Shown piece after piece: positions 35,301 through 63,721 of a DNA stretch of 64,000 bases. Source of the DNA: Lagopus muta (Eukaryota > Chordata > Aves > Galliformes > Phasianidae); the NCBI RefSeq assembly GCF_023343835.1, contig NC_064436.1:70671545-70735544 (forward strand), read 5' to 3'. The translations under genes were made by a program, and so were the position numbers. Position 1 is the stretch's first letter; every line of letters begins with the position of its first letter. The notes under the pieces are model-generated. The model made no database searches. It was not told the DNA's origin and saw only the letters and a list, made by a program, of their open reading frames with translations.

Positions 35301-38300
35301 GCCCCAACCTCTCTCCCCCAGGAGCTCTCTTGCAGTTTGTATCCTTCAAGCTGACAAACCACAAAGCCAGCCAAACCTCCAACACTGCAGTATTGGGGGC
35401 AGAGGCCACGCTGGCTGGATTTACTCAGCATTTCCTACAGCTACGGAGCAGAGAGCAGAGCAGGGAGCAGAGCAGGGAGCAGAGCAGGGAGCAGAGCAGG
35501 GAGCAGAGCAGGGAGCAGAGCAGGGAGCAGAGCAGAGAGCAGAGCAGGGAGAGAGCAGGGAGAGAGCAGGGAGAGAGCAGGGAGCAGAGCAGAGAGCAGG
35601 GAGCAGAGAGCAGGGAGCAGAGCAGAGAGCAGAGCAGGGAGCAGAGCAGGGAGCAGAGCAGAGAGCAGGGAGCAGAGCAGGGAGCAGAGCAGGGAGCAGA
35701 GCAGGGAGCAGAGAGCAGAGCAGAGAGCAGAGCAGGGAGCAGAGCAGGGAGCAGGGAGCAGAGCAGGGAGCAGAGCAGGGAGCAGGGAGCAGAGCAGAGA
35801 GCAGAGCAGGGAGCAGAGCAGAGAGCAGGGAGCAGAGCAGGGAGCAGAGCAGGGAGCAGAGCAGAGAGCAGAGCGGAGCCACTGGGCAGCCCAACAAACT
35901 GAACCAGATCCTAGGATGCTGCACTGAATCACAGAACAGCCCAGGTTGGAAGGGACCTCAAGGATGATGAAGCTCCAACCCCCTGTTGCACACAGGGCCA
36001 CCAACCTCCCCATTGCACAGCAGCCCAGGCTGCCCAGGGCCCCATCCAACCTCCAACACCTCCAGGGATGGATGGGATCATAGGATCACAGCACGGCCTG
36101 GGTTGCAAAGGAGCACAGCTCTCATCTCATCCAACCCCTGCTGTGTGCAGGTCACCAACCAGCAGCCCAGGCTGCCCAGAGCCACATCCAGCCTGGCCTC
36201 CAATGCCTGCAGGGCTGGGGCATCACAGCCTGCTTGGGCGACCTGTAACAGTGCCTCACCTCCCTGTGCAATAACCTTCCTCCTAACATCCAACCCAAAC
36301 CTCCCCTGTCTCACTTTAAACCATTCCCCTTGTCCCATCACCATCCACCCTCACAAACAGCCGTTCCCCCTCCTGTTTATCCGCTCCCTTCAAGTCCTGG
36401 CAGGCCACCATGAGGTCTCTCCTGACCTTCTCTGCTCCAAGCTGAACAATCCCAGTCCCCTCAACCCTTCACAAACAGCCACCCCAGGAGGGCTCAGAAC
36501 TGCTGGGAATCCCACAGCAGCTCACACAGAACCACAGAACGGCCGGGGTTGGAAGGGACCTCAAGGGTGATGAAGCTCCAACCCCCTGCTGCATGCAGGG
36601 CCACCAACCTCCATATCCAAGGCTACACCAGGCTGCCCAGGGCCCCATCCAACCTCCAACACCTCCAGGGATGGACGGGGCATCACAGCCTCTCTGCAGC
36701 TGTTCCAGCCCCTCACCTCTCTCTCTAAAGAACTTCCCCTGACATCCAACCTCATTCTGCCCTCCCTCAGCTCCCAGCCGTTTCCCCTCGTCCTGCTGCC
36801 ATCTCCCCTTGCACAGAGCTGCCTCCCCTCCTGGCTGCAGGCTCCCTTCAGGCACTGCAGGCTGCACTTTGCTCACCCTGCAGCTCCTCTCCTCCGTGCT
36901 GCAGAGCCCAGCTCCCTCAGCCTGGCTTTGTGATCAATGCTGCAGCCCTCTGAGCATCTCTGTGGCTCCTCTGCTCCCTCTCCAACAGCTCCCTGTCTTT
37001 CTCACAGCATCACAGAATGGCCGGGGTTGGAAGGGACCTCAAGGATCACGAAGCTCCAACCCCCTGCTGCATGCAGGGCCACCAACCTCCATATCCAAGG
37101 CTACACCAGGCTGCCCAGGGCCCCATCCAACCTCCAACACCTCCAGGGATGGACGGGGCATCACAGCCTCTCTGCAGCTGTTCAGCCCCTCCCCGCTCTC
37201 ACAGCACACAACTTCCCCTCACACCCAACCCCAATCTGCCCTCCCTCAGCTCCCAGCTGTTTCCCCTCGTCCTGCTGCCATCTCCCCTTGCACAGAGCTG
37301 CCTCCCCTCCTGGCTGCAGGCTCCCTTCAGGCACTGCAGGCTGCACTTTGCTCACCCTGCAGCTCCTCTCCTCCGTGCTGCAGATCCCAGCTCCCTCAGC
37401 CTGCCTTTGCGATCGATGCTGCAGCCTCCACTGCAAGCCTTTCAGGACCAGCCCTTCCCTACAAGCAAACCCTCCTGAACGCCCACCCCGAGGCCACGAC
37501 CCGTCCACCCCCCCGCGTCCCCTCCGTACCTTGGGATCTGCTGGTCCTCCTCGACGCCCAGTCATTGCTGGAGGAGCGCTGCGGCCGCGGGCTGCCCCGC
37601 AGGGGGTTCCTGGACCTCTGAGGTGACCGTGACCAGTGCCTGGGGCTCAGGCGTCGCACCGGCCGCGGGCTTCGGCTCCTGGGTCGTGCTGGGCGATAGC
37701 GGCCCGGGCTCCTGGAGCGCGAGCGGGAGTGGCGGGGAGCATGGCTGGAGGCCGCGGGCCTGGGGCGCCTGGGGCCGGGGCTGGCCGAGTTGGAGCGGTG
37801 CTTGGGGGTCTGGTTCTCCTTCCTGTCCGCGGCATTCCTGAGGAAAGAGAGGATGCTGGTGAGTCCTGACCTGGAGGTAAATCATAGAGTCGCTGAATGG
37901 GGTGGGTTGGAAGGGAGATCAAAGAGAGAAGAACCATGGAGTGATGGGGTTGGGTTGGGAGGGTCCTAGAAGGGCACAGAACCATGGAGTGCTGGGGTTG
38001 GAAAGGTCCTTGAAGGTCATAGAACCATGCAATGCTGGGGTTGGGTTGGAAAGGTCCTTAAAGGTCACAGAACCATGGAATGCTGGGGTTGGGTTGGAAG
38101 GGTCCTTAAAGGGCACAGAATGCTGGGGTTGGGTTGGAAGAGTCCTTAAAGGGCATACAACCATGGAATGCTTGGGTTGGGTTGGAAGGGTCCTAGAAGG
38201 GCAAACAACCATGGAATGCTGGGGCTGGAATGGTCCTTAAAGGAAACAGAACCATGGAATGCTGGGGTTGGGTCAGGAGGGTCCTAGAAGGGCAAACAAC

Positions 38301-41300
38301 CATGGAATGCTGGGGTTGGAAGGGTCCTTAAAGGTCACAGAATGCTGGGGTTGGGTTGGAAGGGTCCTTAAAGGTCACAGAACCATGGAATGCTGGGGTT
38401 GGAAAGGTCCTTGAAGGTCACAGAACCATGGAATGTTGGGGTTGGGTTGGGAAGGTCCTTAAAGGTCACAGAACCATGGAATGCTGGGGTTGGGTTGGGA
38501 GGGTCCTAGAAGGGCAAACAACCATGGAATGCTGGGGTTGGAAGGGTCCTTAAAGGGCACAGAACCATGCAATGAGCTGACTTGGGTTGGAAGGGTCCCC
38601 AAAGATCACAGAAGGACAGAATCATATCACAGTTGGGTCGGAAGGGATCCAAAATCCCCCCCAGTCCCTCCCCCATCATCTCAGGCTGCCCAGGGCCCCC
38701 CAGCCCTCTGAGCGGTGGGACCCAACGCAGTGCAGATGAGGCAGGGCACGCACTGAGCCCAGCAGCCCAGCCTGCCCCTCGTCATCCTCCTGCCCACACC
38801 GAGCCCTACAGTGCCAAACACACAGCCTGCCCCACAGCGCCCCAACCAGGCACAGCCTGGTGGATCTGACGCTGAGGAGCCTTTCAGAGACACTCCGGGC
38901 CCACTCTGCAAAATGAACCTGACTTCTTTCCGTGCTCCTTTGCTTGTTAACTCAGTATTCGGCTTCTCAGGATGTCTAACAGACGGCAAAAGCCCCTTTA
39001 CTCCCATTTGCACTGCGGTCGAAACGCGCGCATCGAAGCAGTAAAACAACCCAAACTCACTGAGCCGCTCTGCTGAGCTGGCCCCAAGTTCTGTGCCAAC
39101 ACAACACTGGAGTTATTAAGGAACTCGGGACAATAGCTGCTCTGATGGCCCATGTGATGGCACCACAGAAAGGGAAGGCAAGGCTCATAGAGCCCGGCAG
39201 TAAACAAAGCTGGGAAACGAACCGTGTTAACGAGCATAGCGGCAAATTAAGAAGCTGTAATCAAGGAGTGGTTACCGCTTTGAAGAGCGAGACTCGGGGT
39301 TCCAGTCGGGGTACCTGTGGGGTCAGAACACAGCCATCAGCCACAGGATCCCATCCTCAGCCAAATGCAGCTCCCAGGGAACGCTGCAGCTCAGCCCCGC
39401 GGCGCCCACCCCCAGCCCCGGCCCAGCTGGGCTCAGTGGTGCACAGGGAGCCTCATCCGCACCGAAAACATTTGTGCCCCCCTCCCCCGTTTTGAAACCG
39501 AAGCCTTACTGTTGTCGTAAGTGGCGGCAGCTCTCGATGTGGGAAGGGGTGTTCTGGTGCAGGATCCAGTCCTGGGGGGAGAGAGAACACAGGCACAGGG
39601 GTGGGTGAGCACACAGCATGCCCATGGCGGGCCACAAGCTGCAGGGCCTCAAGCTGCAGGGCCACAAGCTGCAGGGCCTCAAGCTGCAGGGCCACAAGCT
39701 GCAGGGCCGTGGTGCCTCCCCTCCCATCGCCAGCCAGCCCTGCCAGCGAGGCGGTGAGGTCGGAGCGCTCTCCTGGCATCAGCACTCTTGGTGCAAGAGA
39801 TGAAACACGGCAACGACTGGGGGAGGCTGCTGCAGAACACAGAGCACGACCGCCTCCCTGGCTGTTGGGCTGTGTGAGCCCCTGTGCTGTGCTGAGCTGA
39901 GCTGCCAACACGATGCAGCACCAGGAGGGCCCCGGTGCTGCAGCCGAAGCACGGCTCGCCCTGCCTGGCACCATCACCCAGCACTCCTGGCACCCAGAGG
40001 CCATGAACGAGTCCCACGCGCCTCGCCAGCCCCAGCCATCGCTCTGTAGGAGAGCTGCGACCACAGCCCTGCCTGAGGAGGGGTGAAGCACAACACAAAC
40101 CCAGAGCCACAGCACCAGCCCTAGGAACTCCTCCATGCGGTCGAAGGAAAGCACAACAGAGCAGGCAGCTGCACCAAGACTGCCCTCAAAGTGCCAGCGC
40201 CGAGCTGCTGGTGGGTGCTAAACCTGCTGCCGAAGGGTTGGCAGGGGGACCAGCGCTGAGCCCTGCAGGCAGCGCCCGCTGCGGTGCTTGGGGAGCGCAG
40301 CAGCCATCTCACAAACCAGGGCTGCCCTTCCAATTGCACGCCGGTTGCTAACAAAGCACAATAAAACCGTTCTAACGCTCCACAAAAGCGCTCAGCTGGC
40401 ACAAAGTTGCTCGTGGGCTGCAAGGCCGACGCGGGGCCTCGATGGAAAGTCGGTGGTGGCTTCCTCGAAGCGTGCCGGGGGGGGGGACACCACGTGCCAG
40501 CACACCACTGCTTGGTGCTTGTGAGGAAAGCAGAGTTATTTCCAGTGCCTGAAGCAGAATGTGAGTCTGTGTGTCCCAGCCAAGGGAAGGGCTGATGGAA
40601 CAGCCTGCAGGCTCTCAGCAGCACCGCGTGCACAGCACCAGGAGCAGCAGCGCAGCACTGTGAGCTCTGTGCATCCCCGCTGTGCTGCTGGAGAGCATCC
40701 TCACTCTTCAGCTCAGAGATCCTCCTTCCCAACAAGCTCACGTCCTTCTCTTCTTCCAGCCTTCGCTGCAGCAACGCATCCTCACATCGTTACAGGAGCC
40801 TCCATCCGTGTGCATTCCTCCCCTCCAGCACTGAGGGCTGCAGGCACCTCTGTGGGTCACCCAGCCCAGGAGCCTCACCATTCAAGCAGAGAGCAAGCAC
40901 TGCAAGGTTGGACGTCAGGGGAAGTTGTGTGCTGTGAGAGCGGGGAGGGGCTGAACAGCTGCAGAGAGGCTGTGATGCCCCGTCCATCCCTGGAGGTGTT
41001 GGAGGTTGGATGGGGCCCTGGGCAGCCTGGTGTAGCCTTGGATATGGAGGTTGGTGGCCCTGCATTGGCGGGGGTTGGAGCACTGGAACAGGCTGCCAGG
41101 GGAGCTGTGGGGTCTCCTCCTCTGGAGATGTTCAAGTCTCACCTGGACGCCTACCTGTGCAACCTGCTGTAGGAACTGCTTTGGCAGGGGGTTGTTCTCC
41201 ATCATCTCTAGAGGTCCCTTCCAAGCCCTGCAATGCTGTGATCACCCCTGAGGTCCCTTCCAACCCGGGCCATCCTGTGGTTCTGTGAAGCCGTGGTGCT

Positions 41301-44300
41301 GGGCTGGAGATGCAGAGCTGCTGCTGAGCGTCACCATTCCACGTGGGCTGGAAACGAGGTGGCTGAAGGCAGAAATCACCCTTCAGTACTGCGCCTGAAG
41401 TACTGAAGTGAAAGCAAAGCGCTCACAACACGCTTCACCCCGCTGGGAGGCTGCCAACAGTCCTGCAGAGAACAGCAAGGTGAGATTGCAGCTAACAGGC
41501 AGCGGGATGGATCTCCATCGGGACACAAACGTGCTTCTGCTGACCCACCGTGCACACAAGGACTGCACTGCGCCTCACAGCAGCACCGCGGGGCTCCCTG
41601 TGGGTCCCTTCCCAGAGCAGAGCTGTGCCATGCTGAGCGCTGCCCTCAGTGCAGGCAGCTCCATGGAGAGGCATCCGAGGAGCGCAGGCACATTCAGGTG
41701 CGTGACTCTCCAAACACAGCTCTCCTTTTTATGCTGAGGTCTCCCTGAGCTGCTTCAGCTTCGGTTTCATCCGAGCTCGTTAATGAGCAATGTTAATTAC
41801 CCAAGGAAAACGAGCGGATGCTGCAGGGTGCGTCGGGCTGGGCTCCACGAGGGACAGGGAGGCTGGGGGGCCAAAGGGACGCAGCCCAGGGATGCAGAGA
41901 TGGAGCGGCGGGGGCACGGCTCTGACGTGGGCTGTCCTCCATGGGCGCCGCTGCCAAAGAGTCACAGCACAATGAATGCTGCTGGCGAGCGCTGAGCTCT
42001 GAGTCCATCATTTCAGCAACGCTGTAACTCTGCTGCTGGACCTGGAGTCGCTTTCAGTGCTGGATAAGAAGGCTCTTCTCATTCGATACGCTCCATCCTC
42101 TCCAAAACTCAGCAGCTGCTGTGCCGTGAGCCATCGCCGCGCTGCTTCCTTCTGAACACACGCAGATGTTGCTACAGGACTCAGTGGGGAAATAGCAGGT
42201 TGGACCTGGTGCTCTCAGAGGACCCTGCCAATCTCGGTGATGCCACGATCAAACCTTCCCAGCCGGCCCCGTCACGAAGGCAGCACTTTGTAGCGCGGCA
42301 TCTCAAAGCCGCACATCGCAGCTCGGCCCCACGCGGCACAACTCGCCACCTCCCAAAAGCAGCCCTGTGCTCCCACTGAGCTCAGGGAGGGAGGAAAGGC
42401 AGCGAGGTCGATGTAGGAACCCACATAGGGACACAAAGCTGCAGCCCCACAGCGCCGAGGGCAGCGAAATGGGGAGGGGTGCGGAGCACAGGGCTGCTGA
42501 GGAGCTGAGGGAGCTGGGAGTGTGGAGGGGGAGAAGAGGAGCTGAGGGGAGACCTGGCTGCACTCTGCCACCTCCTGAAGGGAGGCCGTGATGTCAAAGG
42601 GCCTGGCCTCTTGTCCCATGCAAATAGTAGGAGCTGAGGAAACGGCCAGCAGTTGTAGCAGAGGAGGTTTGGGTCGGACAGGAGGCAGAACTGCTTCTCT
42701 CAGGGCTCAGGCCCTGCAATGGCTGCCCAGGAGGTGGGGGAGGCGCCTGGCTGAAGAGCTGCGTGCTGTGCTTTGGTGCTGGTGGTGGCAGCGGTGATGA
42801 GGAGATGGTTGGACTGCATGATCTTACAGGTCGTTTCCAACCTTGGGATCCTATGATTGTATGAAAAGTCAGCTCCTCTGGCAGCGCCGGCAGTCCATGG
42901 AGCAGGAGGAAGCTCAGTCCTTCAGCTCACACGGGAACTGAGGGCGCTTCTCCAAGCCCTGCCCCGTGGTGAACACAAACCCTCGTCTGTTACCTGTTCC
43001 ATTTCAGACGTTCTTCTCTGGAACGCAGCTTCCCCTCCAGTTTCCCGTCCTGCTGCATTTCTTCCCAACCAGGAGAGCTCCAGCACTGCGATGCCCCTGG
43101 TGCAGCTGCCAGCACTGCAGCAGCCACGCGCCATCCGAAACGCAGCAACCTTGCACAGCTCTGCCCCCACAGGCTTCATGTTTGGGGAGAGCTACTTCCA
43201 ATTCCAACACACGGAGCCAATAACCAAACCACACAGTTGTTTCAAGTCACGTTCTTGTGGGTTCCGCCACGTCAAGCTCAGCTCCTTCAAGGAACACCTA
43301 CGGCTTTCAGGATTCTCTTCTCCCTCTTCTTCCTTCCCGTCCTGGTTTTATGGGTTTTGTTTGTCAGTATTCCACACCATAACGTCATGTAATGCACTGG
43401 GGTTTGATTTCTGATGCTCGAGTTCCGAATGTTTGTCTGATGGAGAAGAATGACATTTCCCCAGGAGGCTTTGTGCTCAGCAAGGAGATAAAACTCCATG
43501 CAAGCTCACCAGATTCCTTCTTCTTCACCTGCTCTTCTTCACCTGCTCTTCGCCGTCTGCTTCTCTTCATTCACTCCACTGGGCTGCACTTCTCACCCCA
43601 GCACTGCGCTGAGCCCTACCTACCATTCACACAAACTCTCCCTCTCTCATTGCACTTTGCTAATACTACATTTAACAAATCATTTGTTCCACCTCGGATT
43701 ATTGCCGTTGTTTTCCAGTATTTTGGGGTCCCCCGTTTCCCTTTTCCGGAGGCACAGATCCGCAGATCCCTCTGCCCTGCTGGTCACGGAACCGGGCCGA
43801 AGCAGCCCGCAAACCGCTGACGCTTCCTCTTCTTCCACCACGGGCTGATGCCACCCACAGCTCCGCGGCCCGGCTGGGTGGATGGAGAGCTGCACGCACC
43901 GCTCACAGCTGGGAGCCTCCCCTGGGCCAGCCTGGAAGGCGATGTGGGTACAGAGCGGCAGCGCTCTGCCGGCGTCGCCTCTGCAGCAGCGGGGCTGAGC
44001 ACACCAACGTGGGGTGCTCTCACCTGCCCCCCCTGGGTCAGCACAGCGCCGCCGACAACCAGGCAACGTCAGTGGTTTAAGCAGGCGACGAAGGGTTCGT
44101 TCTGCTGCTCGGAATCCAAAGGCAGACCTTGCTTTTAACACGAGAGCAACCCGAACAACGCGCACGAGGTTGGACACAGAGCACGCTGTGCGGCACGGCG
44201 CTCGTCCTGCGCCGCCTGACATCGGCACCTCGGCACTCAGGCCGCTGAGCAGCAGCACAGCCAGTAAAACATCAGCTCCCCACCCAGAGCAGCGGGTAAG

Positions 44301-45710
44301 GAGCTGGGTACAACTACGGCAATAAGCTGTAAAGACACTCACCTTCATACGAGCGCATTCTACGTTACACAGAGAACACATATGTGGGAATATTCTCGGC
44401 GACGTCGCATAGTAGTCATTCATCATTGACGGGGTGGGCAAGCGTTTGATCTTCTGCGAGTCCGACTGCAGGAAGGACGGCAGCCACGACGCCTTCACAA
44501 CGCCAAAGGGGGACTTAATGGGCCCTTCGGGCTGCGGCTGGAAGGGCTTCTGCCCCATCCCGGAGCTCTGGGCGCTGGGCTGGCTGCTCCCGGCCTCGTG
44601 CTGGATCCTGTCCCGCTGCTCCAGGATGGCCAGCAGCTCTGCCGAGAAGGGCGGCTGGGGGAGGACGGGGACGACGGGCTGCGAGATGAGCGGCGGCACG
44701 ACGGGCTGCGCCATGGGCGGCACGGCCAGCGGCAGGATGGGCGGCATGACAGGCAGCACCGCGGGCGGGGGGCCGGCCTTCCCCACGGGCGCCGCGCACA
44801 GCCCGCCCGCCTTCCCCGCTGGCTCCGCTGGGAAAAATGGGTGAGGGTTGGCCGGGTCGCTCTGGAAAGCCGGCGGGGGCTTCATGACGTCCTGCGGTGG
44901 GAAGGCCGGGCCGCACGCCACGCCGGCCGGCGGGACGCCCATGGGCACGCTCTGCTCTCGGTGGAACTCTTCCCTCTTCTCTCCGCCCGGCGCTTCGGGG
45001 TTGTAGGGCCGTGCTTCCAGAGGCTCCTCTCTCAGCGCTTCCACGTTGTAACCGCGCACCTCCAGAGGATCCTCGGTGTACCCGTACTTGCTGGCGTGCC
45101 CGTAGTCGATCACCTTGCCCTTGACGGCCGCGCCGCTCGTCCCGCTCATCGCTTCTCCTCGGCTCTGGGAATGCAGGCTGGGCAAAGGCTGGCCCATCTT
45201 CCGCATCCGTATCTCTCTGAGGATGAGCGGCATGTTCTCGGGGGTCAGCTGGTCATCCGGGTAGCGACTGAGCTCCTCCAGATCTTCGTTGGACAGCCCG
45301 AAGCTCGCCAAGATGCTGGACGCGCTCTCCGGCGTGTAGCGGTTCTGCGCTGCGGCGTTCTGCTCCGGGATTCGGGCCGGGGGCTTCTGCGAGACCACCG
45401 GCGGGGGCGGGCAGGGGCTGCCGTCCCAGCGGCCGGCGCGCACGTCGCCCTTCTGCTCCTGGTGCAGGCTGCCCTTGGCCTTGGCCTGCCGCGGGTCGGC
45501 CCTGTGCAGGGTGACGCGGACGTTGATGCGCTGCGAGCCGGTCCACGGGACGCTGTCCTGCCCCGACGCGCGCGGCGCTGCCCCCCGGGGTGCTCCTGGG
45601 GCCGGGGGTCTCTGCGGGCCCGTCACACCCTGGAAGGATCCCGGGGGCTTCGCTGCCGACGGGTTGGGTCCTCTCGGCCGCTGCGGCAACGCTCCTCTGG
45701 GGCTAAACAT
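8329..45710 (-). CDS. ZNF638: Zinc finger protein 638 (NP220), complete coding region, 24 coding exons
   Basis: This is the span of the spliced coding region; exons are listed separately. Joining 24 blocks at GT-AG boundaries gives 5,895 bases (1,964 codons plus stop) with no frameshift; human ZNF638 is about 1,978 residues. Order: N-terminal region with the near-invariant [20 protein letters not shown] block; matrin-type finger (Cx2Cx12Hx5H, about 445-472); RS region (about 490-592); RRM-like domains at about 700-792, 956-1042 and 1043-1145; a charged lysine/alanine/proline-rich region (1162-1580); an acidic domain with seven LVTVDEV-type repeats (1603-1904); a second Cx2Cx12Hx5H finger (about 1914-1938); and a basic/acidic tail. 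The family protein is nuclear, is reported to bind cytidine clusters in DNA, recruits HUSH-type silencing and acts in splicing. The start was chosen because MFSPRG aligns with the human N-terminus. Confidence 0.96.
8402..9125. repeat. ~19-bp minisatellite in the last ZNF638 intron
   Basis: The unit is roughly CAGATCCATGCAGCCCCCC, with CATATCTGTG, GATCCGTG and CAAACCCCCC variants. About 38 units occupy almost the whole 741-base intron between exons 24 and 25. They begin within about 10 bases of both splice sites. C runs of 5-11 occur in most units. Confidence 0.93.
9133..9251 (-). CDS. ZNF638: ZNF638 exon 24 (C-terminal matrin-type zinc finger)
   Basis: The acceptor is TTCTCAG|GTCTGG and the donor GCAGAG|GTGGGC. 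It encodes the finger C-QI-C, twelve residues, H-CRTAL-H, preceded by the family hallmark LPKAGFFC. The human block (LVPKAGFFCPICSLFYS) is nearly identical. Length is 119 bases, in phase with both neighbours. Confidence 0.95.
9353..9830 (-). mobile_element. CR1 fragment, minus orientation
   Basis: It starts with AGAATGGCCTGGGTTGCACA (the inverted CR1 3' end) and continues CAGGCTGCCCACAGCCACAT and TGGGGCATCACAGCCTCC. The same series recurs at 19.5, 24.5 and 36.1 kb, and inverted at 34.7, 35.0 and 50.1 kb. It lies in the intron between exons 23 and 24. Confidence 0.85.
9981..10887 (-). CDS. ZNF638: ZNF638 exon 23 (acidic LVTVDEV repeat domain)
   Basis: 907 bases. Acceptor TGCCCAG|GAAGAAG, donor CCAAAAG|GTGAGG. 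It opens with [18 protein letters not shown], as in human ZNF638. Seven repeats of the type [LF]V[TM][VL]DE[VIL] followed by acidic residues are present: FVTVDEV, FVMLDEI, LVVDEV, LVALDEL, LVTVDEI, LVTVDEI and FVTVDEV. The human protein (NP220) was described with nine such repeats. After the last one a further glutamate-rich stretch with GPEEE copies appears to be lineage-specific. Confidence 0.95.
10950..12535. repeat. 20-bp minisatellite (GGATGGAGGGACAACAAGGA)n in ZNF638
   Basis: About 75 units lie in the intron between exons 22 and 23. Blocks are interrupted by longer variants containing CAGGGCTGGATCCC and CATCCCATGTGGGAGGG. One complex block (AACAAAAGCAGGGCTGG to ACACAACAATGAAGG) is repeated at 11327 and 11633, showing a duplication of about 305 bases. 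Frames are open on both strands, without coding meaning. Confidence 0.95.
12925..14640 (-). mobile_element. CR1 fragment, minus orientation, split by a minisatellite
   Basis: CR1 sequence at 12925-13097 (CAGCTCCCCTCTCAGCC, TTTTCTCCATGCTGAACAGA) resumes at 14156 (CTCCATAGCAGAGATGCTCC) and runs through GTTGTTACAGAGCTCC to about 14640. The 20-bp array at 13098-14155 interrupts what is one continuous element in other copies. Confidence 0.8.
13098..14155. repeat. 20-bp minisatellite (family B) inside CR1
   Basis: Same unit as at 4334-6722 (CATAGAGACACGTTGGGACC), about 53 units. It lies in the intron between exons 22 and 23 and is embedded within a CR1 fragment. Confidence 0.93.
14728..14793 (-). 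CDS. ZNF638: ZNF638 exon 22
   Basis: 66 bases. Acceptor CCCTGCAG|GTTTCC, donor CAGGAG|GTGAGG. It encodes [20 protein letters not shown] followed by QE, corresponding to the serine/lysine-rich linker before the acidic domain in human ZNF638. The serine run is encoded by an AGC repeat. Confidence 0.85.
15121..15840 (-). mobile_element. CR1 fragment, minus orientation
   Basis: Begins CACAGCATCACAGAATGGCC and GGGACCCCAAGGATCACGAA and continues to TTTTCATCTATCAGGACCTC, a typical 3' part of CR1 in reverse. About 720 bases, ending about 160 bases from the exon 21 donor. Confidence 0.88.
16003..17257 (-). CDS. ZNF638: ZNF638 exon 21 (large lysine/alanine/proline-rich exon)
   Basis: 1,255 bases and fully open. 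Acceptor TGCATTCAG|CTCTGG, donor AGCACTAAG|GTGAGC. It encodes about 418 residues of low complexity: repeated acidic motifs near the start ([15 protein letters not shown]), many alanine/glycine/glutamate stretches, and a basic end ([13 protein letters not shown]) aligning with human IMKRDDSNNKT. Human has a large exon at the same place. This is the least conserved part of the protein. Confidence 0.9.
17431..17566. repeat. Short minisatellite (CTGCAGCCAAACCAAACC)n
   Basis: Eight or so units of CTGCAGCCAAACC with one to three AAACC pentamers each. In the intron between exons 20 and 21, about 175 bases upstream of exon 21. Confidence 0.9.
17806..17982. repeat. Pentanucleotide array (GATGG/GATGA)n
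   Basis: About 35 pentamers, GATGGGATGA first and then pure GATGA. Purine-rich on the plus strand. It is complementary in type to the array at 18225-18532. Confidence 0.95.
18058..18222 (+). mobile_element. CR1 fragment, plus orientation
   Basis: Contains TGTGTAATATCCTCATTGAT, GACCTATGAGGGCAG and GTGTGCAGGTGACAGCAAG, as in the CR1 copy at 20940-21050. Short, between two pentanucleotide arrays. Confidence 0.75.
18225..18532. repeat. Pentanucleotide array (CATCC/CATCT)n, inverse of 17806-17982
   Basis: About 61 pentamers of CATCC, CATCT and CATGT type. It ends about 35 bases from the donor of ZNF638 exon 20. Together with the GATGG array 243 bases away it forms an imperfect inverted repeat. 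Confidence 0.95.
18567..18616 (-). CDS. ZNF638: ZNF638 exon 20
   Basis: 50 bases. Acceptor CTTTTCAG|CCTGAA, donor GAGGAAG|GTGAGC. Encodes [16 protein letters not shown] plus two bases that join exon 21. Small charged linker after RRM3. The frame fits both neighbours exactly; homology is weak at this length. Confidence 0.75.
18712..19260 (-). mobile_element. CR1 fragment, minus orientation
   Basis: Starts with the CR1 tail region (ATAGAATCACGCAGGTTGTT-like), then CCTTGCCTTCAACACCCCCA and CAGCAATTCTTCCTCACGCC. Near-identical to the copies at 14245, 29930 and 33050. Confidence 0.85.
19500..19700 (-). mobile_element. CR1 fragment, minus orientation
   Basis: GCACGGCCTGGGTTGCACAG through CAGCCTCCTTGGGCAGCCTG, the same sub-family as 9353-9830. 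Confidence 0.85.
20147..20272 (-). CDS. ZNF638: ZNF638 exon 19 (second half of RRM-like domain 3)
   Basis: 126 bases. Acceptor TTTGTTCCAG|GCAATC, donor CCGAC|GTAAGC. Encodes [20 protein letters not shown] and onward to [13 protein letters not shown]. Human has [20 protein letters not shown] at this place. It provides the last strands and helix of the RRM fold. Confidence 0.95.
20574..20714 (-). CDS. ZNF638: ZNF638 exon 18 (first half of RRM-like domain 3)
   Basis: 141 bases. Acceptor CCTTTAG|GTGAAC, donor AACAAG|GTGAGC. Encodes [20 protein letters not shown] and [18 protein letters not shown], aligning with human FVHLDNLPEDG...[20 protein letters not shown]. The RNP2-like VHLGNLP is visible. 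Confidence 0.96.
20866..21836 (+). mobile_element. CR1 element, plus orientation, with intact 3' tail
   Basis: About 970 bases, from AGCAGTCTGAGACATGTGGG to the tail GGTTCTATGATCCTATGATC. Near-identical over most of its length to 24736-25535 and to the reverse complement of 30500-31426. It ends about 35 bases from exon 17. The first and third copies share the same 5' breakpoint. Confidence 0.9.
21871..21912 (-). CDS. ZNF638: ZNF638 exon 17
   Basis: 42 bases, 14 codons. Acceptor CCCTTCCAG|GAAGCG, donor CCTAAG|GTGAGC. Encodes [14 protein letters not shown]; human has EAIFITLVKENDPE at this place. Micro-sized but well supported by frame and homology. Confidence 0.92.
22105..24076. repeat. Heptanucleotide array (CAGCACC)n, about 2 kb, G-quadruplex type on the sense strand
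   Basis: About 280 heptamers with CAGCATC, CAGCGCC, CGGCACC, CATCATC and single-base-shift variants. On the minus strand, the sense strand of ZNF638, it reads (GGGTGCT)n. That is GGG every 7 bases with TGCT loops, a textbook G-quadruplex pattern. It fills the intron between exons 16 and 17 and runs directly into the 5' splice site of exon 16 (GAA|GTAGGTGGTGGGTGG). The long proline/histidine or glycine/cysteine frames here are artefacts. Confidence 0.96.
24077..24205 (-). CDS. ZNF638: ZNF638 exon 16 (second half of RRM-like domain 2)
   Basis: 129 bases. Acceptor TTTGCAAAG|GCGTAT, donor GATGAA|GTAGGT. Encodes [20 protein letters not shown] and onward to [20 protein letters not shown]; human has [17 protein letters not shown] here. 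A donor four bases further on (GTAG|GTGG) also exists but would break the frame with exon 17. Confidence 0.95.
24347..24478 (-). CDS. ZNF638: ZNF638 exon 15 (first half of RRM-like domain 2)
   Basis: 132 bases. Acceptor GCTTGCAG|GATGCT, donor AAGAAG|GTATGG. Encodes [20 protein letters not shown] and [17 protein letters not shown], nearly identical to human [20 protein letters not shown]...KPFGGLKDILILSSHKK. Confidence 0.96.
24545..24710 (-). mobile_element. CR1 fragment, minus orientation
   Basis: CACAGCACGGCCTGGGTTGC through GGGATGGGGCATCACAGCCT. It abuts the plus-oriented composite beginning at 24736. Confidence 0.8.
24736..26221 (+). mobile_element. CR1 composite, plus orientation
   Basis: 24736-25535 is a near-identical copy of 20985-21780. 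It then continues through GCAGCTCGTTTCCAACCTCG, GAAGACATGGAGGGCCTGGA, AGCAGAGGGAACGGCTTCAA and the tail CCCTTCCAACCCCTGCCATT. The whole composite reappears inverted at 29815-31350. Several CR1 3' segments are joined in one block, so it is a mosaic, not one clean insertion. Confidence 0.85.
26222..27003. repeat. 20-bp minisatellite (family B, reverse orientation) and CR1 tail
   Basis: The unit GGTCCCAACGTGTCTCTATG is the reverse complement of the unit at 4334. About 36 units lie at 26222-26952, followed by a CR1 tail (GTAACAACCTGCGTGATTCC, ATGGTTCTATGAA) to 27003. It starts from the CR1 tail GGATTCTGTGTCTCTATGGG. It ends 33 bases from exon 14. Confidence 0.93.
27036..27088 (-). CDS. ZNF638: ZNF638 exon 14
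   Basis: 53 bases. Acceptor TCAAATAG|GAGCTT, donor AGCAAG|GTCAGT. Encodes [17 protein letters not shown], an acidic linker before RRM2. Assigned from phase and splice sites; sequence homology is weak. Confidence 0.75.
27360..27431 (-). CDS. ZNF638: ZNF638 exon 13
   Basis: 72 bases. Acceptor TTTTGTAG|ACAAAG, donor GATGGAG|GTGAGC. Encodes [20 protein letters not shown] and a few more residues. Linker between RRM1 and RRM2. Frame-consistent (phase 1 at both ends) but not clearly homologous, so it could be skipped in some transcripts without a frameshift. Confidence 0.7.
27518..27697 (-). CDS. ZNF638: ZNF638 exon 12
   Basis: 180 bases. Acceptor CCTTCCAG|CTCCAT, donor TACCGG|GTAATC. Encodes [20 protein letters not shown] and an alanine/glycine/glutamate-rich continuation. 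Corresponds by position to the human SNKPVTIPENSE linker. 180 bases keeps the frame if skipped. Confidence 0.78.
27893..27964 (-). CDS. ZNF638: ZNF638 exon 11
   Basis: 72 bases. Acceptor CCACCTAG|GCAAAA, donor ACTGCAG|GTGAGA. Encodes [20 protein letters not shown] and SDTA, a lysine-rich linker resembling human GGKKSLEAKKTGNVKNK. Confidence 0.8.
28296..28410 (-). mobile_element. CR1 tail fragment, minus orientation
   Basis: CACAGCATCACAGAACTGCA, GGTTGGAAGGGAGCTCCAGA and CATGGAGTCCAACCCC are the reversed CR1 3' end. In the intron between exons 10 and 11. Confidence 0.75.
28600..28652 (-). CDS. ZNF638: ZNF638 exon 10
   Basis: 53 bases. Acceptor TTAATAG|GAAGCA, donor GTTGCAG|GTGAGG. Encodes [17 protein letters not shown]. 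Short basic linker; phase agrees with exons 9 and 11. Confidence 0.78.
28819..28877 (-). CDS. ZNF638: ZNF638 exon 9
   Basis: 59 bases. Acceptor CCTCTAG|GCCAAA, donor CACCAG|GTGAGC. Encodes [19 protein letters not shown], a basic stretch right after RRM1 like human KKAQNKEVKKKTLESKK. Confidence 0.82.
29144..29275 (-). CDS. ZNF638: ZNF638 exon 8 (second half of RRM-like domain 1)
   Basis: 132 bases. Acceptor TTGTTTCAG|GCCTAC, donor AGCCAG|GTAACG. Encodes [40 protein letters not shown] and SPSQ; human has [20 protein letters not shown] here. Confidence 0.96.
29455..29562 (-). mobile_element. CR1 tail fragment, minus orientation
   Basis: AGCATCACAGGGTTGGAAAT and CCATTGCTATCAGCACCACC. It leads straight into the 20-bp array. 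Confidence 0.75.
29563..29815. repeat. 20-bp minisatellite (family B)
   Basis: About 13 units of CATAGAGACACGTTGGGACC with AGAAACA and GGTACAC variants. It ends in the CR1 tail (GACACAGAATCCCACAGAAT). Mirror partner of 26222-26952. Confidence 0.93.
29816..31426 (-). mobile_element. CR1 composite, minus orientation (inverted copy of 24736-26221)
   Basis: Begins AGAATCCCACAGAATGGCAG and runs through the same segments as 24736-26221 in reverse, then further to GCCCACATGTCTCAGACTGC, matching the 5' edge of the copy at 20866. It ends about 80 bases from exon 7. Confidence 0.88.
31505..31651 (-). CDS. ZNF638: ZNF638 exon 7 (first half of RRM-like domain 1)
   Basis: 147 bases. Acceptor AACGTGCAG|CTGTTG, donor AACAAG|GTCAGT. 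Encodes [20 protein letters not shown], then [20 protein letters not shown] and LIVLRSRNK. Human [21 protein letters not shown]...PFGKVNDVLIV is clearly homologous. Confidence 0.95.
31895..32087 (-). mobile_element. CR1 fragment, minus orientation
   Basis: CACAGCATCACAGGATTGTA, GGTTGGAAGGGAGCTGCAGA, and TCTTGAACATCTCCAGAGCA to CCTCCATGGGCAGCCTGCTG. Followed directly by the 20-bp array. Confidence 0.82.
32088..32940. repeat. 20-bp minisatellite (family B)
   Basis: About 43 units. A GACCCCTAGAGACAC variant marks its first third. Between two CR1 fragments in the intron between exons 6 and 7. Confidence 0.93.
32941..34220 (-). mobile_element. CR1, minus orientation, reaching the exon 6 splice donor
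   Basis: Runs from the tail (AGAATCCCACAGAATGGCAG) through CAGCAATTCTTCCTCACGCC and AGGTGCGGCCTCACAGAGC to CTCTCGCTGCACAGCAGCAC. Read on the minus strand, the far end would encode a GVADDG stretch that resembles the FADD catalytic block of CR1 reverse transcriptase. If so, the element reaches to within a few bases of the exon 6 donor. Confidence 0.75.
34224..34543 (-). CDS. ZNF638: ZNF638 exon 6
   Basis: 320 bases. Acceptor TTTGGCAG|ACAGGA. It encodes [40 protein letters not shown] and onward to an acidic block [11 protein letters not shown]. It aligns with human [24 protein letters not shown]. The only donor restoring phase 0 for exon 7 is the weak CGG|GTGATT at 34224/34223, at the edge of a CR1 element. 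The 3' end is therefore less certain than the 5' end. Confidence 0.82.
34705..34862 (+). mobile_element. CR1 fragment, plus orientation
   Basis: GCCCTGCAGGCATTGGAGGC through the tail CAGGCTGTTCTATGGTTCTA. Intron between exons 5 and 6. Confidence 0.85.
34925..35292 (+). mobile_element. CR1 fragment, plus orientation
   Basis: Starts CTTTCCCCACCTCCTTGACA, includes AATGGTTTTAAAGTGAGACA and GGAGGAAGTTTTTCACACAC, and ends at GGGATTCCATCCACTCTATG. Same sub-family as the copy at 50.1 kb. Confidence 0.85.
35441..35876. repeat. 12-bp minisatellite (GGGAGCAGAGCA)n
   Basis: About 36 units, including 10-base (GGGAGAGAGCA-like) and 8-base variants. In the intron between exons 5 and 6. Confidence 0.95.
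35925..36480 (-). mobile_element. Two adjacent CR1 fragments, minus orientation
   Basis: 35925-36080 carries AGGTTGGAAGGGACCTCAAG to CCCCATCCAACCTCCAACAC. 36083-36480 carries the other sub-family (CACGGCCTGGGTTGCAAAGG to CCTCCTGTTTATCCGCTCCC). Confidence 0.85.
36525..36995 (-). mobile_element. CR1 fragment, minus orientation (tandem copy 1)
   Basis: Begins CAGAACCACAGAACGGCCGG and ends near CCAACAGCTCCCTGTCTTTC. Over about 420 bases it is almost the same as the next element. Confidence 0.88.
37005..37460 (-). mobile_element. CR1 fragment, minus orientation (tandem copy 2)
   Basis: Begins CAGCATCACAGAATGGCCGG. Its 5' part closely matches 36525-36950. It ends about 70 bases from the exon 5 donor. 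Confidence 0.88.
37530..37837 (-). CDS. ZNF638: ZNF638 exon 5 (arginine/serine-rich region)
   Basis: 308 bases. Acceptor TTTCCTCAG|GAATGC, donor CCCAAG|GTACGG. Encodes [20 protein letters not shown], then [20 protein letters not shown] and a run of RSP/SRSP dipeptides ending RRTSRSQ. Human has [20 protein letters not shown] followed by its RS region. RS domains mediate nuclear speckle localisation and splicing-factor contacts. Confidence 0.94.
37885..38660. repeat. ~48-bp minisatellite derived from a CR1 3' end
   Basis: About 16 units of the type ACAGAACCATGGAATGCTGG, GGTTGGGTTGGAAGGGTCCT, TAAAGGTC. The unit is the reversed CR1 tail region (AATGGTTTGGGTTGGAAGGGACCTTAAAGATC in the canonical element). 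Lies just upstream of exon 5. Confidence 0.9.
39276..39314 (-). CDS. ZNF638: ZNF638 exon 4
   Basis: 39 bases. Acceptor CCCACAG|GTACCC, donor AAAGCG|GTAACC. Encodes [12 protein letters not shown]; human has QYPDWNPEILPSRR here. The shared first base completes the glutamine codon of exon 3. Confidence 0.93.
39510..39571 (-). CDS. ZNF638: ZNF638 exon 3 (second half of matrin-type zinc finger 1)
   Basis: 62 bases. Acceptor CCCCCCAG|GACTGG, donor CAACA|GTAAGG. Encodes [20 protein letters not shown], supplying the two zinc-binding histidines (H-x5-H). Human [20 protein letters not shown] is nearly the same. Confidence 0.97.
39634..39712. repeat. 15-bp tandem repeat (AAGCTGCAGGGCCAC)n
   Basis: Five to six units alternating GCCACAAG and GCCTCAAG. 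Intron between exons 2 and 3. Confidence 0.9.
39713..40904. other. ZNF638 intron 2 sequence without recognised features
   Basis: Single-copy-looking intron. No exon, tail-bearing element or array was seen. Confidence 0.5.
40905..41290 (+). mobile_element. CR1 fragment, plus orientation
   Basis: GACGTCAGGGGAAGTTGTGT, CAGCCTGGTGTAGCCTTGGA and CTGGAGATGTTCAAGTCTCA, with two successive tail-like segments ending CGGGCCATCCTGTGGTTCTG. Confidence 0.85.
41291..42450. other. ZNF638 intron 2, no recognised features
   Basis: No exon, repeat array or recognisable transposon was found. Confidence 0.5.
42455..42866 (+). mobile_element. CR1 fragment, plus orientation
   Basis: From AGGGCAGCGAAATGGGGAGG to the tail TTGGGATCCTATGATTGTAT. 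It matches 21424-21760 with few differences. Confidence 0.88.
42867..44342. other. ZNF638 intron 2, portion next to exon 2
   Basis: No feature was recognised beyond a small duplicated TCTTCACCTGCTCT near 43523-43548. An open frame that runs on from exon 2 past its donor at 44342 is intronic read-through. Confidence 0.5.
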
Positions 45711-57867: not shown

Positions 57868-58009
57868 CGGCAGCAGCCATGAACGGCCCCGATGCAGCCG
57901 GCGGCGCCCAGGGCAGCGAAGGGAAGGGGGGAGATGGGCGAGAGAAAAAGGAGAGCAACCGTTTGCTGAGTACATGTGGATGGAGAACCAGGAGGACTTC
58001 GACAGGCAG
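57868..58009 (+). pseudogene. PAIP2B: PAIP2B exon 2 (first coding exon), with an apparent 1-base deletion
   Basis: Acceptor CACCCCACAG|CGGCAG, ATG at 57879, donor GGCAG|GTGAGG. It begins MNGPDAAGGAQGSEGKGGDG and REKKESN. The conserved family block PFAEYMWMENQEDFDRQ follows in a different frame: the sequence has AAC CG TTT where AAC CCG TTT is expected, so one C is missing near 57960. PAIP2B binds PABPC1 and represses translation. The N-terminal acidic region belongs to its PAM1 side. Listed as pseudogene only because the frame is broken; an assembly error is at least as likely. Confidence 0.8.
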
Positions 58010-58079
58010 GTGAGGCTCAGGGGGCCTTGAGATCCTGCGGCTCCTGACAGCCACCATGAGGGTCCTTGCAGGTCGCATG

Positions 58080-60645
58080 GGAGGGTTGGTGTCAGCTGGA
58101 AAGGTCCTAACTGATCCTAGCACTGTGGGGTGGTTGGGTTGGGTTGGAAAGGTCCTAACAGGTCACGGAGCCATGGGATGGTTGGGTTGGAAAGGTCCTG
58201 ACAGATGATAACACCATGGATGGTTGGTTGGAAGGGTCCTTATAGATTACAGACATGGGGTGGTTGGGTTGGGTTGGGTTGGGTTGGAAAGGTCCTAACA
58301 GGTCACAGAGCCATGGGGGGGTTGGGTTGGGTTGGGTTGGAAGGGTCCTTATAGATCAGAGACATGGGGTGATTGGGTTGGAAAGGTCCTAATAGATCAG
58401 AATCATGGGACGGTTGGGTTGGGTTGGAAAGGTCCTAACAGGTCACAGAGCCATGGGATGGTTGGGTTGGAAGGGTCCTTACAGATCAGAGACATGGGAT
58501 GGTTGGACTGGGTTGGAAAGGTCCTCACAGGTCACAGTCATGGGATGGTTGGGTTGGAAAGGTCCTGACAGATCAGAGACATGGGATGGTTGGGTTGGGT
58601 TGGGTTGGAAGGGTCCTTACTGATCAGAGACATGGGGTGATTGGGTTGGAAAGGTCCTAACAGGTCACAGAGTCATGGGATGGTTGGGTTGGGTTGGAAA
58701 GGTCCTAACAGGTCACAGAGATGTGGGTTAGGCTGGAAAGGTCCTAACATATCGCAGAGCCATGGGATGGTTGGGTTGGAAAGGTCCTGACAGATCATAA
58801 CACCATGGGGTGGTTGGGTTGGGTTGGGTTGGAAAGGTCCTAACAGGTCACGGAGCCATGGGATGTTTGGATTGGGTTGGGTTGGAAAGGTCCTAACTGA
58901 TCCTAGCACCATGGGATGGTTGGGTTGGGCTGGGTTGGAAGGGTCCTTGCAGGTCACAGAGCCATGGGACAGTTGGGTTGGGTTGGAAAGGTCCTAACAG
59001 GTCATAGAGCCGTGGGATGGTTGGGTTGGAAAGGTCCTTACAGATCAGAGCCATGGGATGGTTGGACTGGGTTGGAAGGGTCCTAACAGGTCACAGTCAT
59101 GGGATGGTTGGGTTGGAAAGGTCCTTACAGATTACAGACATGGGGATGGTTGGGTTGGGTTGGAAAGGTCCTAACAGGTCACAGAGCCATGGGGTGGTTG
59201 TGTTGGGTTGGAAAGGTCCTTATAGATCACAGACATGGGATGGTTGGGGTTGGGTTGGGTTGGGTTGGAAAGGTCCTAACAGGTCACAGAGCCATGGGAT
59301 GTTTGGATTGGGTTGGGTTGGAAAGGTCCTAACAGGTCATGGAGTCGTGGGATGGTTGGGTTGGGTTGGAAGGGTCCTAACAGGTCACAGAGTCATGGGA
59401 TGGTTGGGTTGGAAAGGTCCTTACAGATTACAGACATGGGATGGTTGGGTTGGGTTAGAAAGGTCCTCACAGGTCACAGAGCCATGGGATGGTTGGGTTG
59501 GAAAGCTCCTAACTGATCCTAGCACCATAGGATGGTTGGGTTGGGTTGGGTTGGGTTGGGTTGGGAAGGTCCTAACAGGTCACAGAGTCATGGGATGGTT
59601 GGGTTGGGTTGGGTTGGGTTGGAAAGGTCCTAACAGGTCACAAAGATGTGGGTTAGGCTGGAGAGGTCCTAACATATCGCAGAGCCATGGGATGGTTGGG
59701 TTGGAAAGGTCCTGACAGATGATAACACCATGGGGTGGTTGGGTTGGGTTGGAAAGGTCCTAACAGGTCACGGGAGCCATGGGATGGTTGGGTTGGGTTG
59801 GAAAGGTCCTTATAGATCAGAGACATGGGGTGATTGGGTTGAAGGGTCCTAACAGGTCACAGAATCATGGGATGGTTGGGCTGGGTTGGAAAGGTCCTTA
59901 TAGATCACAGAGCCGTGGGACGGTTGGGGTTGGGTTGGAAAGGTCCTTACAGATCAGAGACATGGGGTGATTGGGTTGGAAGGGTCCTAACAGGTCACAG
60001 AGCCATGGGACGGTTGGGTTGGGTTGGAAAGGTCCTAACTGATCCTAGAACCATGGGATGGTTGGGTTGGGTTGGGTTGGGTTGGGTTGGGTTGGAAAGG
60101 TTCTAACAGGTTACAGAGCCATGGGATGGTTGGGTTGGAAAGGTCCTTATAGATCACAGAGCCGTGGGACAGTTGGGTTGGGTTGGGTTGGAAAGGTCCT
60201 AACAGGTCACAGAGCCATGGATGGTTGGGTTGGGTTGGAAAGGTCCTTACAGATTACAGACATGGGATGGATGGGTTGGGTTGGAAAGGTCCTAACAGGC
60301 CACAGAGCCATGGGATGGTTGGGTTGGGTTGGGTTGGGTTGGGTTGGGTTGGAAAGGTCCTAACAGGTCACAAAGATGTGGGTTAGGCTGGAAAGGTCCT
60401 AACATATCGCAGAGCCATGGGATGGTTGGGTTGGGTTGGAAGGGTCCTTACAGATCACAGAGCCATGGGACGGTTGGGTTGGGTTGGAAAGGTCCTTGCA
60501 GATCACAGAGCCGTGGGATGGTTGGGTTGGGTTGGGTTGGAAGGGTCCTTACAGATTACAGACATGGGATGGTTGGGTTGGAAAGGTCCTTGCAGATCAC
60601 AGTCATGGGATGGTTGGGTTGGGTTGGAAGCGTCCTTGCGTGCTG
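58080..60645. repeat. ~48-bp CR1-derived minisatellite rich in TTGGG, PAIP2B intron 2
   Basis: About 50 units of CATGGGATGGTTGGGTTGGG, TTGGAAAGGTCCTAACAGG and TCACAGAGC, with 1-6 GGGTT pentamers per unit. Like the array at 37885-38660 the unit is the reversed CR1 tail. It occupies nearly the whole intron between PAIP2B exons 2 and 3. A decayed CR1 remnant continues to about 60790. Confidence 0.93.
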
Positions 60646-60993
60646 TCACTGAGTGCCCTCCTAAAGCAGCCCTGCCACAGCTTTCCTGTAGGCCCCCTTC
60701 AGGTCCTGGAAGGTCACTATGAGATCTTCTCTCCTCCAGGCTGCAGAGCCCCAGCTCCCTCCCCCTGTCCAACCCTCGGCCTCTCCGCAGGCCTCTCCAA
60801 GGGGTGATGGAGAGCTGGGGACGGACGGCCTGCGGCATCGAAAGGGGCTGCGAGGAGGAAGGGAGCAGACGCAGAGCGCGTAGGAGAGGCCGGGGGAAAC
60901 GGTGTAAAGAAGAGAGATTTAAGGGGGACGGAAGGGAAGAGTTTGACGCCAAGGGTGGGGAGGCACTGAAGCGGCGCCTTCCCTCGGGGGCAG

Positions 60994-61172
60994 GTGGAGG
61001 AGGAGCTGCAGGAGCAGGAGTTCCTCGACCGCTGCTTCCAGGGAGATGTTGGACGAGGAGGACCAGGAGTGGTTCGTGCCGTCGCGAGATCTGCCTCAGC
61101 GCGTGGGGCAGCTGCAGCAGCAGCTCAATGGGCTCTGCGTCGCCGACGGCCGCGGCCCCCGAGGATGTCGTG
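60994..61172 (+). pseudogene. PAIP2B: PAIP2B exon 3, with two apparent 1-base insertions
   Basis: Acceptor GGGGGCAG|GTGGAG, donor TCGTG|GTAGGG. Encodes VEEELQEQEFLDRCFQ, then an extra G (CAGGGAG for CAGGAG, near 61040) shifts the frame. MLDEEDQEWFVPSRDLPQ and GQLQQQLNGL follow in the next frame. A second extra C (GGCCCCCGAG for GGCCCCGAG, near 61158) separates these from the expected PEDVV end. Without the two bases the exon would be 177 bases, 59 codons, matching the family. No conserved residue is otherwise lost. Central PABP-contact region (PAM1). Confidence 0.82.
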
Positions 61173-61264
61173 GTAGGGGGCTGCTGGGGGGGGGGGGACC
61201 AGGGGGGGGTGGGGGGTGGGGGGTGGCCTTTGGGGTTTTGCTTGAGGTGGAGGAGGTGCCTGAG

Positions 61265-63640
61265 GAGCAGGATGGGCTGTTGGTCAACTGTTGGCCGACC
61301 TACTGATAGTTGGTCAACCGTTGGCCAAGCATCGATCAGCACGTGGTCAACTGTTGGCCAATCCACTGAGCAATCATTGGTCAACTATTGGCCAATCCAT
61401 TGGTCAACCATTGGCCAACCATTGGCCAACCACTGCTCAGCACGTGGTCAACTCTTGGCCAATCCATTGAGCAACCATTGGTCAACCATTGGCCAACCAT
61501 TGATCAGCACGTGGTCAACTATTGGCCAATCCATTGAGCAACCATGGGTCAAATGTTGGCCAACCATCGATCAGCACGTGCTCAACCATTGGCCAACAAT
61601 TGCTCAGTACTTGATCAACTATTGGCCAATCCACTGATCAACCATTGGTCAACTATTGGCCAATCCACTGATCAACCATTGGTCAACTATTGGCCAATCC
61701 ACTGAGCAAACCGTTGGTCAACCATTGGCCAACCATTGATCAGCACGTGGTCAACTATTGGCCAATCCATTGAGCAAACCATTGGTCAACCGTTGGCCAA
61801 CCATTGATCAGCACGTGGTCAACTATTGGCCAATCCATTGAGCAATCATTGGTCAAATGTTGGCCAACCCATTCATCAAGCATCGATCAACCATTGGCCA
61901 GCCCGTTCATTGACTGTTGATCAACCATTGGCCAACCCACTGATAGTTGGTCAACCATTGGCCAACCATTGATCAGCACGTGGTCAACTATTGGCCAATC
62001 CACTGAGCAACCATTGGCCAGCCATTGATCAGCAGGTGGTCAACTACTGGCCAATCCATTGAGCAACCATTGGCCAACCATTGATCAGCACATGGTCAAC
62101 CATTGGCCAACCATTGATCAGCACATGGTCAACCATTGGCCAACCATTGATCAGCACGTGGTCAAGTCTTGGCCAATCCATTGAGCACCCATGGGTCAAA
62201 TGTTGGCCAACCCATTCATCAACTGTTGGTCAACCACTGGCCAACCCACTGATAGTTGATCAACCATTGGCCAACCATTGCTCAGCACGTGGTCAACTAT
62301 TGGCCAATCCACTGATCAACCATTGGTCAACTATTGACCAATCCATTGAGCAACCATTGGCCAACCATTGATCAGCACGTGGTCAACTATTGGCCAATCC
62401 ATTGAGCAATCATTGGTCAAATGTTGGCCAACCCATTCATCAACCATCGATCAACCATTGGCCAACTCGTTCATTGACTGTTGGCCAACCATTGGCCAAC
62501 CCACTGATAGTTGGTCAACCATTGGCCAACCCACTGATCAGCAATTGGTCAACTGTTGGCCAACACATTGATCGACCATTGGCCAACCATTGGCCAACCC
62601 ACTGATAGTTGGTCAACCATTGGCCAACCCACTGATCAGGAGTTGGCCAACCCTTTCATCAACTGCTGGCCAACCATTGGCCAACCATCGATCAGCATTG
62701 GTCAAACTGCTGGCCAACCACTGGCCAACCACTGATCAGGAGCTGGTCAACTGTTGGCCAACCATTGGTCAACTCATTCATCAACTGCTGGCCAACCATT
62801 GGCCACCCACTGATCAGCCATTGGTCAACTGTTGGCCAACCCATTCATTGACAGTCAGTCAACCATTAGCCAACACACTGATAGTTGGTCAACTATTGGC
62901 CAACCCACTGAGCAACCATTGGCCAGCTACTGGCCAATCCGTTGATCCACAGCAGGTCAACCATTGGCCAACCCATTCATCAACTGTTGGTCAATCATTG
63001 GCCAACCCACTGAGCAGCAGTCGGTCAGCCATTGGACAACTCATTGATCAACCATTGGTCAACCACTGGCTAAGCCATTCGTCAACCATTGGTCAACTGT
63101 TGGCCAACACATTCATCAACTGTTGGCCCATGCATTGATCAACCATTGGTCTGTTGGCCAATCATTGGCCAACCCACTGATAGTTGGTCAACCATTGGCC
63201 AACCACTGATCAGCAATTGGTCAACTGTTGGTCAACCCATTCATCGACTGCTGGCCAACCATTGGTCAGACCACTGACCAGCAATTGTTCAACTGTTGGC
63301 CCATGCATTGATCAACCATTGGTCTTTTGGCCAATCATTGGCCAACCCACTGATAGTTGGTCAACCATTGGCCAACCCACTGATCAACAGTTGGCCAACC
63401 ATTGGCCAACCTGTTCATCAACTTCTGGCCAACCACTGGCCAACCGCTGATCAGCAATTGGTCAACCATTGGCCAACCCACTGATCAGGAGTTGGTCAAC
63501 TGTTGGTCAACCATTGGCCAACCCCCTGATCAACAGTTGGCCAACCATTGGTCAGCCCATTCATCAACTGCTGGCCAACCATTGGTCGGTCAATCCTTTC
63601 ACCAACTGCTGGCCAACCATTGTGACCCGTTGGCCAACCG
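61265..63640. repeat. ~11-bp minisatellite (CATTGGCCAAC)n in PAIP2B intron 3
   Basis: Dense repeats of ATTGGCCAACC, ATTGGTCAACT, ATTGATCAGC and CACTGATAGTTGG, many at 11-base spacing. TTGGCCAA is palindromic. CCAAT or ATTGG occurs many times per 100 bases. The array fills the intron between exons 3 and 4 up to about 25 bases from the exon 4 acceptor. Confidence 0.95.
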
Positions 63641-63663
63641 CCGGCCCCCCCCTTGTCTTCCAG

Positions 63664-63721
63664 ATCAAAAAGCACCTTGAACCCCGACGCCAAGGAGTTT
63701 GTGCCGGGCGTGAAGTACTGA
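63664..63721 (+). pseudogene. PAIP2B: PAIP2B exon 4 (last coding exon, PAM2 motif), apparent 1-base insertion at its start
   Basis: Acceptor GTCTTCCAG|ATCAAAAAGC. In the reading frame that ends at TGA (63719-63721) it encodes KSTLNPDAKEFVPGVKY, the PAM2 motif that binds the MLLE domain of poly(A)-binding protein, with the key LNPxAxxFxP residues intact. It is 58 bases; 57 would join exon 3 in frame, so the AAAAA run may hold one extra A. C-terminus matches PAIP2/PAIP2B family members. The 3' UTR runs on to the window end. Confidence 0.85.

Follow-up and report, generated by a model that had tools for sequence, protein, structure and literature searches.

The window, by which we mean the whole stretch of 64,000 nucleotides of Lagopus muta DNA that was analysed, lies on contig C7 (71,213,224 bases), about 478 kb from the contig end. 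Its plus strand carries three coding exons of PAIP2B: the first, counted from the ATG, at 57879..58009 with a GT donor, the second at 60994..61172 with an AG acceptor and a GT donor, and the last at 63664..63721 with an AG acceptor, the PAM2 motif and a TGA stop. PAIP2-type proteins bind poly(A)-binding protein through their PAM1 and PAM2 motifs and damp translation. Beside PAIP2B, on the minus strand, are coding exons of ZNF638 (9133..45707), which we take from human gene order to be the expected neighbour.

The window is dense in minisatellites throughout. They include an array of 277 copies of the 7-mer CAGCACC at 22103-24073, and a 20-mer close to ACCCATAGAGACACATTGGG is repeated in several further arrays. 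The two introns between the PAIP2B coding exons each hold one array, with repeats of a 48-mer type in the first (58097..60639) and of a 34-mer type in the next (61310..63587), and both arrays were used as gauges of sequence error.

Across the three PAIP2B coding exons, four homopolymer runs are each one base off the length implied by the reading frame, and conserved blocks on opposite sides of each run lie in different frames. The frame is broken in the first exon at the run CC (57959-57960, in the motif AACCG at 57957), in the second at GGG (61041-61043, in CAGGGAG at 61039) and at five C (61156-61160, in GGCCCCCGAG at 61154), and in the last at five A (63667-63671, in ATCAAAAAGC at 63664). 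An earlier note on this DNA had described four one-base homopolymer indels in about 366 coding bases that otherwise keep their amino-acid blocks, splice sites and stop. All four motifs are present where that note placed them, the GT/AG sites, the TGA and the conserved blocks are all in place, and 368 nt were counted from ATG to stop as assembled, the sum of the four changes being net +2.

Since the first two changes cancel each other, the frame of the spliced message as assembled is open for 108 codons, after which it meets a premature stop that leaves PAM2 out of frame; the forecast that automated annotation would truncate the gene is thus reasonable. Read in the conserved frame and not in the assembled one, the C-terminal PAM2 is intact as had been claimed, matching Pfam PF07145 (E 5.9e-9, 35.4 bits against a cut-off of 20) and PDB chain 1jgn_B of PAIP2 (E 4.3e-5). 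The other three pieces of the protein, including the PAM1-type blocks, matched no Pfam family. PF15807, considered as a family for the PAIP2B search, was discarded because this accession is the unrelated MAP17. Judged by titles and the openings of abstracts, none of the literature retrieved on PAIP2B in bird or chicken treats the avian gene.

The paralogue PAIP2 is intact in the same genome, on contig C17 near 2.20 Mb, and the blocks that match PAIP2B run through it uninterrupted. A DNA search of the assembly with PAIP2B coding exon 1 returned this locus and PAIP2, the latter with 87% identity to part of the exon over 52 bases. A protein search with coding exon 2 returned this locus at E 1.9e-32; the matches at five other loci had E values of 0.05 or weaker. 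Neither search found a second PAIP2B copy in the assembly, with the proviso that a strongly diverged one would escape them. The gene at this locus resembles known PAIP2/PAIP2B proteins in its PAM2 (PF07145, 1jgn_B) and in blocks that can be aligned with those of the genome's own PAIP2; unlike them, it is interrupted at four runs in its assembled frame. The two genes share the same residue in 60 of the 88 codons compared and differ in 28. In PAIP2 on C17 (L005/L006), the exon encoding the NPFAEYMWMEN block is followed by a GC donor, CAG|GCAAGT.

Coding controls from the same assembly show no such breaks. With a human ZNF638 protein as the query, tblastn gave 12 matches within 9133..45707; every one of them stays in a single frame, and some contain whole-residue gaps. 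This agrees with the earlier statement that ZNF638 is completely in frame, although the 5.9 kb named there compares with 3,136 nt counted here in 10 stretches; two secondary matches and a gapped match near 39.5 kb were left out, and one match was split in two around an unmatched insert. Among runs of at least two bases, frame-breaking ones number 4/68 in PAIP2B and 0/830 in the controls (626 in ZNF638, 127 in an EBF-type gene, described below, and 77 in PAIP2), with a Fisher p of 3e-5 that is optimistic because tblastn is biased towards intact frames and PAIP2B was selected for its broken appearance.

We have also addressed the question of whether the four changes are real. A very recent loss would make them genuine slippage indels and PAIP2B a young pseudogene: slippage in a hypermutable, minisatellite-laden stretch near the chromosome end would have disabled it, and PAIP2 would cover its role as the sole PAIP2-type brake on translation. 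The gene as assembled is indeed broken by four frame-breaking indels, and PAIP2 is intact, as such a loss would have it. We nevertheless regard this course of events as unlikely, on the evidence of constraint that follows and of the introns.

For the comparison of 88 PAIP2B codons, the N-terminal 26 codons and the codons beside the runs were left out. Base differences from PAIP2 number 23, 8 and 45 at the first, second and third codon positions, and the conserved frames contain no in-frame stop in these codons. Relative to human PAIP2B, 15 of the 88 residues differ, with a mean BLOSUM62 score of +1.27; random missense changes average -0.42, and the observed mean was reached in none of 20,000 draws. 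The amino-acid differences are conservative, which is unlike neutral decay. About ten SNPs per indel are given for non-coding DNA of the great tit in PMC6543879. With four neutral indels, that ratio predicts about 20 missense changes in 88 codons, of which about 10 would be non-conservative. The non-conservative differences observed from the human protein number two (P 0.004), and this argument against a loss weakens to P 0.14 at a ratio of 5 and to 0.45 at a ratio of 3, so that the test depends on the assumed indel ratio as well as on the human sequence used. The absence of stops is weak evidence when taken alone (P 0.22 at a ratio of 10). Beside the indels, PAIP2B carries none of the marks of neutral decay, i.e. 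stops, lost splice sites or random missense changes, and slow decay of the gene appears disfavoured on this comparison, which leaves a small probability to a very recent burst of slippage.

The minisatellites provide a gauge of run-length error in the surrounding DNA. Of the 29 arrays that are about 350 bases long or longer it covers 28, the omitted one being without a testable run, and it counts run-length changes seen in one repeat copy only, per run tested (flank 6). Such unique changes amount to 11/1352 (0.8%) in arrays at 1-57.8 kb, 9/896 (1.0%) in the PAIP2B intron arrays, 19/749 (2.5%) in arrays between 64.5 kb and an assembly gap to the right of the window, and 4/638 (0.6%) in arrays right of that gap. 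They are commonest of the four zones at the gap edge, where the excess over the far-left arrays gives p = 0.003, 0.08, 0.005 and 0.13 at four settings, two of which are not significant. For runs of at least three bases the counts are 10/652 far left, 5/175 in the PAIP2B introns, 14/256 from 64.5 kb up to the gap, and 3/331 to its right.

The intron arrays of PAIP2B are no worse than distant arrays, so a uniformly bad stretch of 6 kb, or a uniform failure of the local sequence, is not supported. The arrays right of the gap are clean, which indicates that being next to a contig edge is not in itself enough to produce errors. That the introns do not point to a generally poor consensus is a point in favour of a real loss, and the same result counts equally against real neutral decay, which is expected to touch introns like exons. 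The exons themselves (4/68) exceed the intron arrays, with p 0.006 to 0.010 at four settings, and 3/16 against 5/175 for runs of at least three bases (p 0.02). This excess is probably due in part to the way in which the finding was selected.

The gap is a run of 500 N at 71181-71680 on the scale of the window (G000:C7:70742725-70743224), 7.5 kb downstream of the PAIP2B stop. It is the sole run of N in the 264 kb examined, i.e. the window and 200 kb downstream of it. A run of exactly 500 N denotes a gap of unspecified size. The contig to its left stops partway through a tandem array (68182-71179) that abuts the gap, and PAIP2B lies 7.5 to 13 kb from this gap-side contig end.

Right of the gap is a gene of EBF/COE type (Pfam COE1_HLH), the matches to which start at about residue 344-346 and comprise its 3' half only. 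Between PAIP2B and the gap, no match to an EBF-type gene exceeded 22 bits. When the genome was searched with residues 1-375 of human EBF1, there were 27 matches, 11 on C17, 6 on C8, 9 on C30 and 1 on C7, the last being a single exon of the gene beside the gap. The best-conserved early EBF exon (about residues 40-99) is found on C17, C8 and C30 and was not found at the C7 locus. The 5' half of the C7 gene was not found in the assembly among these 27 matches, in a search that is not exhaustive, since it failed to return some of the middle exons of the gene on C8. By elimination we infer that the gene on C7 is EBF4, the 5' half of which is presumably located inside the gap. A literature search for EBF4 together with birds and missing genes returned nothing, and the main text of PMC6321700 names neither PAIP2B nor EBF4.

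MPHOSPH10, which we assume to be a neighbour of PAIP2B in human, matched on contig C13 in a search with PF04006 and so provides no local control for PAIP2B. Its position on C13, together with an EBF-type gene across the gap from PAIP2B, may reflect a rearrangement in birds or a scaffold join and is worth checking. A six-frame Pfam scan of 10 kb of locus L014 gave a single extensin-like match, just under the cut-off.

The half EBF-type gene shows that sequence is missing at the gap, where an intact PAIP2B might also lie unassembled, the copy in the window being a broken duplicate. This is very improbable: the window copy adjoins ZNF638, the neighbour expected from human gene order, it has kept its introns, its changes are conservative, and the two exon searches of the assembly yielded no second copy. 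It is scarcely credible that real run-length changes are tolerated in a shortened, functional PAIP2B of this lineage. The second change does compensate for the first, and the 108-codon frame retains a later portion of the conserved region; but such a protein would lack the NPFAEYMWMEN-type block and PAM2, the DNA of which has nonetheless remained conserved in another frame, where nothing would maintain it.

The earlier note had left open a choice between consensus error and a very recent loss. Error is favoured, because of the gap 7.5 kb away, the 5' half of the EBF-type gene that was not found, and the conservative amino-acid differences. We therefore consider, with a probability of roughly 0.85, that PAIP2B is an ordinary functional gene and that its four frame breaks are one-base errors of run length in the consensus. 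Poor read coverage or polishing near the gap-side contig end may have come first, and a few short homopolymers in the gene would then have been assigned an incorrect length. If so, the real protein is expected to act like known PAIP2-type proteins.

Errors of this kind are documented in birds. False indels in GC-rich exons are described in PMC9516821, and PMC13320880 reports frameshift errors for 2.2% of BUSCO genes in VGP genomes and 4.9% in other genomes. The closest likeness is with PCDH17 in the former zebra finch assembly (PMC9516821), where false indels lie in a GC-rich exon of an otherwise intact gene. That case rests on reads and a second assembly, whereas ours is drawn from the surroundings and the sequence of the gene.

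The locus is a warning for claims of gene loss, since a conserved PAIP2B near an assembly gap looks broken. Automated annotation will probably truncate or drop the gene, and half of an EBF-type transcription factor gene seems to be concealed by the same gap. Were the indels true after all, one bird lineage would have lost a regulator of translation very recently.
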